From assembly GCA_016192035.1 (NCBI GenBank), contig JACPUW010000044.1, positions 1-64,000 on the forward strand: a stretch of DNA of 64,000 nt, in the 5' to 3' direction. This document shows, in pieces, positions 5,974 to 53,454 of the stretch; position 1 is the stretch's first letter, and the number at the start of each line of letters is the position of its first letter. Both the position numbers and the translations under genes were made by a program. The notes beneath the pieces are model-generated. The model saw only the letters and a list, made by a program, of their open reading frames with translations, searched no databases and had not been told where the DNA came from. The DNA is from Bacteroidota bacterium (GTDB lineage: Bacteria > Bacteroidota > Bacteroidia > CAILMK01 > JACPUW01).

Positions 5974-6378
5974 ATGAAGAATTCAGAGTTTAAAGTGTTG
6001 GCGGTAGGGATGGGTGTGGCAATCTTCACTTTGCAGGGATGTGGCGGGGATGAAGACTATGATGATATTATCACAATGTCAAAAAAAGGCCGCCTGGTGG
6101 GTGAGTGGGAATATCAATCGGGTCCAATGGACTCACTTGACCTGGTTTATGAATTTGAAGATGATCATGATTTTGCAATGATCTTGACCTTTACGTATTA
6201 TGGAGAGCAGTTTTATTACAAGGAGAGTGGGGAATGGAATTGGGAGGACGGCAAGGAGTCCGTTGAAATTGAAATGGATGGCTCCGTTGGAAAAGAAGAA
6301 TACAAAATCATCAAACTCACGTCTCATGAACTGGTTTTGGAGTATGACGGCGAGGGGATAGAATTTGAAAAGCAGTAG
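5974..6378 (+). CDS. Small lipoprotein, lipocalin-like, paralogue 1 of 3
   Basis: 134 aa. Short signal peptide with lipobox LQGC (Cys23); unusually, the n-region carries an acidic residue (KNSEFK). The Cys is followed by GGDEDYDD, an acid-rich stretch like the surface-export signal of Bacteroidetes lipoproteins. The mature part has GRLVGEWEYQ, FEFEDDHDF, GEWNWEDGKESVEIEMDG and LTSHELVLEY, a compact beta pattern with the G-x-W motif of lipocalin-like domains. It is the most diverged of three tandem copies. The first 30 bp upstream (CCTATCTT..GGCAAATTTTTAACC) are shared with the other two copies, the longer spacer is not. Function unknown. Confidence 0.78.
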   Translation: MKNSEFKVLAVGMGVAIFTLQGCGGDEDYDDIITMSKKGRLVGEWEYQSGPMDSLDLVYEFEDDHDFAMILTFTYYGEQFYYKESGEWNWEDGKESVEIEMDGSVGKEEYKIIKLTSHELVLEYDGEGIEFEKQ

Positions 6379-51852: not shown

Positions 51853-51879
51853 GGGCGCAATTCACCACTATCCATTTAC

Positions 51880-52075
51880 ATCGTCTAAATCGACGATATT
51901 TTAGATTATCGTCTAAATCGACGATATTTTGGATTATCGTCTAAATCGACGATATTTTAGGTTATCGTTTAAATCGACGATATTTTGGATTATCGTCTAA
52001 ATCGACGATATTTTGGATTATCGTCTAAATCGACGATATTTTGGATTATCGTCTAAATCGACGATATTTTAGATT
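51880..52075 (+). repeat. Array of seven 28-bp tandem repeats, candidate operator array
   Basis: Seven directly adjacent units of exactly 28 bp start at 51880, 51908, 51936, 51964, 51992, 52020 and 52048. Consensus: ATCGTCTAAATCGACGAT, then ATTTTRGATT. Each unit carries the inverted repeat ATCGTC-N6-GACGAT; units 1 and 7 end TTAGATT, the others TTGGATT or TTAGGTT, and unit 4 has a T for C at position 6. A degenerate eighth unit (52076-52098) runs into the satD start region. There are no spacers as in CRISPR; the even spacing and palindromic core fit a multi-site operator. Confidence 0.9.
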
Positions 52076-52102
52076 ATCGTGGATATACGCGATATTTGCC
52101 CA

Positions 52103-52747
52103 ATGATAGCTGTACTCAAGGGCGACATAGTGGCTTCTCGCAAACTGAAAAATCCCGAACTATGGCTAAACCCCATAAAAGAGCTGCTAGGTAAGTGGGG
52201 CCAGAGCCCAAAGGATTGGGAATTGGTATGGGGAGACCTGTTTCAAGTAGAGATAACCCGGCCTGAAGATGCCCTGCTAAAGGCCATACAAATCAAAGTG
52301 TTGCTAAAACAGGTACAGCCGGTGGAAGACAAGAAAAGAATGGGTACTATAGACGTGAGAATGTCTATGGGAATAGGCGATAAAACCTATACGGGTGAGC
52401 GGATTTCAGAAAGCAATGGGCCTGCTTTTGTACACGCGGGGGAAAAGTTTGAAAACCTTAAGAAGGAATACACCAGGTTGGCCATAAAATCGCCGTGGCC
52501 AGAATTTGACCGAGAGATGAACCTTTACCTATCACTGATCAATAGGTTCATGGACAAGTGGTCGGTTTCTTCAGCCCAACTCATGCAAATAGTGCTTAAC
52601 CAGCCTAGCTACACACAAGAGAAGATAGGCGCAGAGTTAGAAATTAAGCAAAACTCGGTGAGTGGTAGATGGCGCCGGGCCTGCGTGGACGAAATACTGG
52701 CCGTAGAAAGCCGGTATCGGGAAAAAATTGTTAAGTTGCTCACATGA
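52103..52747 (+). CDS. SatD-family protein, possible cyclase-like domain plus C-terminal HTH
   Basis: 214 aa, from ATG 52103 (MIAVLKGDIVASRKL); a GTG at 52079 inside the last repeat is less likely. Residues about 1-130 can be laid over class III nucleotide-cyclase motifs: KGDIVASRKL for the metal Asp strand, WGDLFQVEITRPEDAL for the second G-D strand, and VRMSMGIGDKTYTGER with a later FVHAGEKF where cyclases have the Asn/Arg pair. Those last residues are changed, so activity is doubtful. Residues about 160-205 (PSYTQEKIGAELEIKQNSVSG) look like a helix-turn-helix. It fits a DNA-binding regulator, perhaps autoregulating through the repeats. ATGA overlap with the next gene. Confidence 0.75.
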   Translation: MIAVLKGDIVASRKLKNPELWLNPIKELLGKWGQSPKDWELVWGDLFQVEITRPEDALLKAIQIKVLLKQVQPVEDKKRMGTIDVRMSMGIGDKTYTGERISESNGPAFVHAGEKFENLKKEYTRLAIKSPWPEFDREMNLYLSLINRFMDKWSVSSAQLMQIVLNQPSYTQEKIGAELEIKQNSVSGRWRRACVDEILAVESRYREKIVKLLT

Positions 52748-53454
52748 TTATACTGGCCAAATTGCTCTTGGCCCACCTGGCTGGGGATTTTACCTTCCAA
52801 CCCAGGGCTTGGGTACACGACAAAGAAAAAAGAAAAGCAAAATCAGCCAAACTTTACCTGCACATACTCATTCATGGGGCATTGGTGCAGCTATTCCTTT
52901 GGCAAGCAAAGTATTGGTGGGTTACACTCGCCATTATGCTCACACATGGGACTATAGACACAGTGAAACTGTATGCCCAGGGCGAAAAGACCAAAAACCG
53001 GTGGTTTGCCATAGATCAATTGCTTCATTTGATTGTAATTGTAGCGCTTTGGCTCATATTGGCCAGGCCAAATATTCCATACATGGCCTATGTCCATGAT
53101 CCGGCCATCTGGACGTATGTAGCGGCTATCTTATTTATTACCAGCGTATCCGGGATATTGATTCAGGTTGTTTTATCGTATTGGGCCCACGCACTTAAAG
53201 TGGGCGACGGGGAATCGCTGCAGCACGCAGGGAAGTACATAGGGGTTATGGAGCGTCTGTTGATTTTTGTTTTTATCGTATCGGGCAACTGGGAAGCCAT
53301 AGGGTTTCTGTTGGCTGCCAAGTCCATTTTTCGGTTTGGTGATTTGAAAGAGGCCAAAGACCGTAAGCTAACCGAATACATCTTAATGGGCACCTTGCTG
53401 AGCTTTGGCATAGCCATAGTTACGGCTATGGGGGTGTTGAAATTGACCGATTGA
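52744..53454 (+). CDS. DUF3307 membrane protein
   Basis: 236 aa with about seven membrane helices. The family's polar residues sit inside helices: LLLAHLAGDFTFQP (H, D), LHILIHG (two H), MLTHGTIDTVKLY (H, D, K) and IDQLLHLIV (D, H). Such a set could form an intramembrane metal site, as in the YdjM/DUF457 hydrolase class; this is inference. Its ATG overlaps the satD stop (ATGA), so the two are co-translated, a pairing seen in other Bacteroidota. Function unknown. Confidence 0.85.
   Translation: MIILAKLLLAHLAGDFTFQPRAWVHDKEKRKAKSAKLYLHILIHGALVQLFLWQAKYWWVTLAIMLTHGTIDTVKLYAQGEKTKNRWFAIDQLLHLIVIVALWLILARPNIPYMAYVHDPAIWTYVAAILFITSVSGILIQVVLSYWAHALKVGDGESLQHAGKYIGVMERLLIFVFIVSGNWEAIGFLLAAKSIFRFGDLKEAKDRKLTEYILMGTLLSFGIAIVTAMGVLKLTD

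Follow-up and report, generated by a model that had tools for sequence, protein, structure and literature searches.

The intergenic region upstream of a satD gene in a Bacteroidota genome contains a tandem array of 28-bp dyad-symmetric units. This array belongs to a general feature that recurs upstream of satD-DUF3307 gene pairs with a period of 28 or 29 bp, and its half-site covaries with three residues in the predicted recognition helix of SatD. Based on these sequence comparisons, the array very probably serves as the satD-DUF3307 operator, with SatD as its binding protein, and SatD would likely repress its own expression.

Tandem array upstream of satD

Seven 28-bp units and a degenerate eighth unit span positions 51879-52098 of the window, that is, the whole 64,000-nucleotide stretch of DNA analysed here. 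The array lies in the gap between the uvrB stop codon (51852) and the satD ATG (52103). Tandem Repeats Finder detected it at 51880-52080 with a period of 28, 7.2 copies, 95% matches, 0% indels and a score of 367, and with the exact cores this shows that the seven units reported before the SatD/DUF3307 operon in the initial annotation are real. The core of the units is an 18-bp dyad, ATCGTC-TAAATC-GACGAT, and four of the seven units are identical across the full 28 bp. The initial annotation assigned ATCGTC-N6-GACGAT to every unit; the exact motif is present in six of the seven, and the fourth has ATCGTT. The degraded eighth unit carrying a GATATTTG box just 5' of the satD ATG was found as described. 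The sole other tandem repeat in the window (6149-6187) is weak, with 2.2 copies of 17 bp. The features of the region are listed in Table 1.

Table 1. Features of the satD-DUF3307 region in the window
Feature	Position	Strand	Basis
Operator unit 1 core, ATCGTCTAAATCGACGAT	51880..51897		Exact motif; Tandem Repeats Finder
Operator unit 2 core	51908..51925		Exact motif; Tandem Repeats Finder
Operator unit 3 core	51936..51953		Exact motif; Tandem Repeats Finder
Operator unit 4 core, ATCGTTTAAATCGACGAT, left arm with one change	51964..51981		Motif; Tandem Repeats Finder
Operator unit 5 core	51992..52009		Exact motif; Tandem Repeats Finder
Operator unit 6 core	52020..52037		Exact motif; Tandem Repeats Finder
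Operator unit 7 core	52048..52065		Exact motif; Tandem Repeats Finder
Operator unit 8, degenerate, promoter-proximal, ATCGTGGATATACGCGAT	52076..52093		28-bp register; 1 mismatch to TATCGT-N8-ACGATATTT
Putative -7 promoter box, GATATTTG	52091..52098	+	7/8 versus TAnnTTTG; overlaps right arm of unit 8; inferred
satD, nucleotide-cyclase/GGDEF-fold domain and C-terminal HTH	52103..52747	+	Pfam, AF2, fold search
DUF3307 gene, predicted multi-helix membrane protein	52744..53454	+	Pfam PF11750, AF2 pLDDT 91.6

A search of the 2.98-Mb genome for TATCGT-N8-ACGATATTT with 0-1 mismatch retrieved eight sites, all inside the array, so that only the satD promoter bears the site in this genome. At up to three mismatches, the genome-wide matches are not above those of the reversed pattern (28+44 versus 49+51). 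A dispersed genomic repeat, which the initial annotation had named as an outcome that would speak against an operator, is ruled out by this confinement of the sites. The array is non-coding and its head-to-tail units have no variable spacers; both a coding repeat and a CRISPR are ruled out, in agreement with that annotation.

Arrays upstream of satD in Bacteroidota

In Algoriphagus, Mongoliibacter, Indibacter and Arthrospiribacter, six satD loci (57-61% identity) were inspected, and every one carries 28-bp-spaced dyads of a like kind. Surveys at the level of the phylum, the class and two families yielded 207 distinct satD genes, and DUF3307 follows 198 of them. An unbiased scan for dyad-symmetric repeats with periods of 18-40 bp in the 150 nt upstream of satD gave 28 or 29 bp as the best period at 171 of 206 loci (28 bp, 114; 29 bp, 57), compared to 16/206 in shuffled and 10/207 in in-gene controls. 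An array caller fixed at 28/29 bp and three units was then applied, with the 99th percentile of shuffles as the threshold, and 170 of the 206 loci exceed it. Three units were counted in 130 of these arrays, partly by construction since the caller demands three, four in 34 and five to eight in six, and the window array has the highest number. The weakest of the three units fits the consensus at ≥10 of 14 positions in 145/170 arrays. The window array is thus one member of a general feature. The expectation that the motif would precede other satD-DUF3307 pairs, rather than being absent from them, was borne out at most of the 206 Bacteroidota loci and at several plasmid loci from other phyla.

Most half-sites follow TATnnn-N8-nnnATA with a variable triplet, and 144 of the 170 start with TAT. 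The half-site varies by lineage (TATCGT, TATCGG, TATAAG, TATTAC and others), while dyad symmetry and period are retained. About 36 of the 206 loci are below the array threshold. Among them is a group from a single family (six loci and their relatives) that has SatD-DUF3307 pairs, with no 28/29-bp array detected.

Arrays were called at 168 of 197 satD genes with a DUF3307 neighbour versus 2 of 9 without. Six short forms of DUF3307 without SatD were also scanned and all are below the array threshold. The short DUF3307 subfamily (nine loci, mostly 125-150 aa) lacks SatD. Full-length DUF3307 genes without SatD occur at three loci in one genus, with no upstream array recognisable by eye; in the three genomes of this genus, DUF3307 adjoins a 3-hydroxyacyl-CoA dehydrogenase-like gene. 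Some genomes (three pairs of loci and others) encode two SatD paralogues with differing recognition helices, and the second paralogue is often without DUF3307 and without an array.

The window array has eight units where three to four are usual, and its median unit identity is 0.89 versus 0.64 in other arrays. This suggests that it was probably enlarged recently, which makes the copy-number change proposed in the initial annotation plausible, with slippage or unequal exchange as the probable source of the added copies. The high copy number and the four identical units could also be taken as marks of a functionless tandem repeat that arose neutrally through replication slippage. That process by itself leaves unexplained why the arrangement is kept before satD phylum-wide despite diverged units (median 0.64), and the period scan, the shuffle threshold and the covariation with the helix described below contradict a neutral repeat, which we regard as extremely improbable. 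A seven-unit array of TATAAGT type precedes satD in an unrelated Bacteroidota genome, indicating that long arrays arose independently. No SatD match was found in the same-genus and same-family genomes, both of which are incomplete assemblies.

Predicted proteins encoded by satD and DUF3307

The DUF3307 gene start overlaps the satD end by 4 bp (ATGA). SatD (214 aa) matches the Pfam family SatD (PF16264) over profile positions 4-197 of 211, scoring 28.8 bits (E 1.1e-6) where the cut-off is 29. The DUF3307 protein passes the PF11750 cut-off (100.6 bits versus 23; E 8.3e-29). In the AF2 model of SatD (pLDDT 95.5), helices 172-179 and 183-192 form a predicted C-terminal HTH, with residues 183-192 as the predicted recognition helix, and a PDB profile search also gave HTH-type matches to the C-terminus.

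The best structural matches of the N-terminal domain are GGDEF domains, class III nucleotide cyclases and GTP cyclohydrolase III. The top Foldseek matches are GGDEF domains and class III cyclases (probability 1.00, E about 1e-3, TM about 0.4), VIA-align gave Z scores of 10.9 with the DosC GGDEF domain and 11.0 with GTP cyclohydrolase III, and weak profile matches were obtained to the cyclase Ma1120 (E 0.002). Foldseek E values of about 1e-3 and Z scores of 10-11 point to a shared fold and not to close kinship. SatD is thus predicted to join a nucleotide-cyclase/GGDEF-fold domain to an HTH. Two aspartates, D8 (97%) and D45 (98%), are kept among the 207 SatD proteins. They occupy the usual metal-site positions as placed by secondary structure alone, and D45 lies within a GGDEF-like RGDSFQ/RGDEFQ hairpin. 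The retained aspartate pair suggests that the ligand of SatD is a nucleotide with metal. The DUF3307 protein is predicted to be all-helical, with H11, D15, H40, D72, H95 and other residues invariant, and a structure search gave no usable PDB match for its fold.

Half-site triplets covary with the predicted recognition helix of SatD

Each SatD alignment column was tested against the variable triplet of the half-site (d7, d6 and d5, counted from the dyad). G188 shows the highest mutual information with the triplet (0.47) and N184 is joint second (0.32), while S185 ranks first for base d6. SatD residues 184, 185 and 188 occupy the second, third and sixth positions of the predicted recognition helix. 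The residues at these positions correspond to the triplet in a regular manner: NSG is found with CGT in 19/20 cases, SSE with CGG in 18/18, AAR with TAC in 11/11 and SSQ with AAG in 8/8. For single positions, G, E and K/R at 188 go with T, G and C at d5, respectively, and S/T and A at 185 with G and A at d6. Pairing of Arg or Lys with C at d5 (G on the opposite strand) and of Glu with G at d5 (C on the opposite strand) is chemically sensible.

After stratification of pairs by N-terminal identity, residues 184/185/188 jointly give log odds of 3.5, and the maximum among 500 random triples of non-HTH columns is 2.1. In disjoint pairs of closest relatives taken from the N-terminal tree, residue identity and triplet identity are linked (33/5 versus 9/29; Fisher p = 3.8e-8), and S185 is the best of 196 columns in this test. 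When the median of all HTH columns was compared with that of N-terminal columns, most positions were not significant; the signal sits in the three residues. From the covariation of the half-site with residues 184/185/188, the array is most likely bound by SatD itself, which would thereby autoregulate satD-DUF3307, and the SatD recognition helix most likely sets the site specificity. The initial annotation had proposed the operon's own HTH protein as the binder, and SatD is the best candidate.

Several columns outside the HTH also correlate strongly (E197, P24 and W39; R206 and F135 in the pair test), which means that shared ancestry is reduced, not removed. It could be argued from these columns that another regulator binds the array and that SatD covaries through shared ancestry alone. 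The strongest columns, however, are those of the recognition helix in both the identity-stratified and the pair tests, and the pattern reaches other phyla that share satD and DUF3307 alone. Moreover, within 10 kb on each side of 20 loci, only SatD (20 loci) and DUF3307 (19 loci) recur, and every other neighbour family is limited to at most four loci. Binding by another regulator is therefore improbable in our estimation.

The units could likewise act as RNA hairpins, either as tandem intrinsic terminators after uvrB or as a leader RNA element, with the changes in the arms reflecting RNA compensation. As a transcript, the array shows strong folding (z -8.5), and terminator-like hairpins were scored for six units versus 0.3 in shuffles, but palindromes fold by construction and these stems hold only three G-C pairs. 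The arrays also precede satD regardless of the upstream gene, the flanks being unconserved, and the promoter box at the 3' end of the array would leave most of it upstream of transcription. Since RNA structure does not predict that the arms covary with an HTH recognition helix, an RNA element is very improbable, and SatD binding to DNA remains the preferred reading.

Promoter architecture and proposed regulation

The sigma-A -7 box of Flavobacterium psychrophilum, TAnnTTTG, extends from -12 to -5, and leaderless mRNAs account for only 5.5% in this species (PMC9723704). A perfect -7 box is located ≤60 nt from the ATG in 47 of 149 arrays versus 9.5 expected from shuffling. With 0-1 mismatch, the box overlaps the proximal unit in 36/149 arrays, and in 18 of those 36 it ends exactly 4 nt before the ATG. 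The window box also ends 4 nt 5' of the satD ATG, suggesting that transcription would start at or beside the ATG. TTG occurs at the right distance from the -7 box in only 14 of the 36. The idea that the 28-bp period mirrors promoter-element spacing in Bacteroidota is weakened by this low count and by the 28/29-bp arrays found upstream of satD in Gammaproteobacteria and in an archaeon.

In about 40% of arrays, 17-19 bp separate the nearest dyad from the ATG, and SatD placed there would cover the core promoter. In the window, where the putative -7 box shares bases with unit 8, SatD on this unit would do the same, making autorepression the likelier sign of regulation. Tandem upstream sites are also compatible with SatD acting as an activator or as a setter of graded levels, and the -7 box falls outside the proximal unit in most arrays, so that promoter occlusion is not the whole story everywhere. 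Given the position of the nearest dyads, we consider activation or graded control unlikely and autorepression by SatD the better reading.

We infer a model that covers SatD binding, cooperativity, repression and ligand control as well as the role of DUF3307. Each 28-bp unit contains a single dyad site, TATnnn-N8-nnnATA, whose arms would both be contacted by a SatD dimer by way of its HTH recognition helix. Adjacent dimers, 28 bp apart, would build a regular oligomer across the promoter, where the -7 box overlaps the last unit. As 28 bp corresponds to 2.7 helical turns, successive dimers would be rotated by about 120 degrees, and the constant period points to contact between neighbouring dimers. 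Autorepression may be lifted once the nucleotide-cyclase/GGDEF-like domain binds or converts a nucleotide ligand, and SatD and the coupled membrane protein would then be produced together.

Distribution in other phyla and on plasmids

In all plasmid DUF3307 loci from Vibrio, Pseudoalteromonas, Sphingomonas, Klebsiella, Segatella and Fusobacterium, a SatD gene is located directly upstream. Vibrio lentus has three TTAGCC-N6-GGCTAA dyads upstream of satD at a 28-bp period, and a 28-bp period with two clear units was found in Pseudoalteromonas and Segatella. Spacing of 29 bp was found before satD in Enterobacter, Klebsiella, E. coli pEC34A and the archaeon Halorientalis. The scan gave no array before satD in Sphingomonas and Pseudomonas fragi. 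These dozen non-Bacteroidota sequences were scanned without a shuffle control, and they are support for the spread of the array, not proof.

Several of these loci lie outside the set from which the residue-base code was derived. In Vibrio and Salinivibrio (A, T and K at 184/185/188), the triplet is AGC, as expected at d6 and d5. In Halorientalis (S, T and E), it is CG[G/C] versus an expected CGG, fitting at d7 and d6 and, in half of the arms, at d5. In the Pseudoalteromonas operator, the code fits at d5 and fails at d6.

With unconserved flanks and with copies on plasmids of other phyla and in an archaeon, satD-DUF3307 behaves as a two-gene cassette. On two tiny plasmids, E. coli pEC34A (3770 bp) and a 4.4-kb Klebsiella plasmid, the pair is the near-only cargo. 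On a Sphingomonas insulae plasmid, it adjoins a Pycsar-like locus, with genes labelled Pycsar effector, E2-associated protein and nucleotide cyclase. PADLOC contains no family matching SatD or DUF3307 up to E 0.1, and PADLOC matches within 5 kb of the 20 loci are no commoner than in control regions; an association with defence islands was rejected. No match to either protein was found in the phage collection. Viral contigs yielded a single full-length DUF3307 relative accompanied by SatD, plus two partial relatives lacking it.

Comparison with known systems

One-component HTH regulators with autoregulatory tandem operators have several dyads in their own promoter, and the regulator gene comes first. 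The satD operon shares both traits. It differs in that the site sequence is replaced under a spacing that stays at 28/29 bp phylum-wide and in some other phyla, in that three or four sites are usual (eight here), and in that the sensor has a predicted nucleotide-cyclase/GGDEF fold. The N-terminal domain of SatD is predicted to share the fold of class III cyclases, GGDEF diguanylate cyclases and GTP cyclohydrolase III, with two Asp at the metal-site positions, but it is only about 13-16% identical to them and is fused directly to an HTH. Within its GxAFxxSG stretch, no counterpart of the class III cyclase Asn can be recognised.

The organization further resembles toxin-antitoxin operons with an autorepressing antitoxin in its two overlapping genes, regulator-first order, putative autoregulatory sites and presence on small plasmids such as pEC34A, although SatD resembles a one-component regulator. 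Streptococcal SatD (secretion and acid tolerance D) has the Pfam name PF16264 in common. In Streptococcus pyogenes, satD is an accessory gene (178/249 genomes) that is essential where present, the single such gene (PMC11323703). This might be the pattern expected of a repressor or antitoxin restraining a harmful partner. In the open-access papers searched, SatD and DUF3307 are almost absent: DUF3307 or the SatD family is named in two, PF11750 and PF16264 in none, and no description of a satD operator array was found.

A broader reading is put forward tentatively, as possible and rather less than probable. Here, satD-DUF3307 would be a mobile two-gene module for addiction or phage defence, in which a cyclase-fold sensor-HTH silences a potentially harmful membrane effector via a fixed-period operator filament until a nucleotide signal frees the effector. 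The geometry would be kept across bacteria and archaea while the code shifts with the helix.

The data yield a testable role for SatD as a self-regulating DNA-binding protein with a nucleotide-cyclase-like sensor, with one target per genome in the case examined and with an empirical recognition code derived from natural variation. A constant period of 28/29 bp combined with a fully replaced site sequence is a clear comparative hallmark of orderly protein assembly along the DNA. With the pair found on plasmids and across phyla, the question arises of how the module benefits its carrier.
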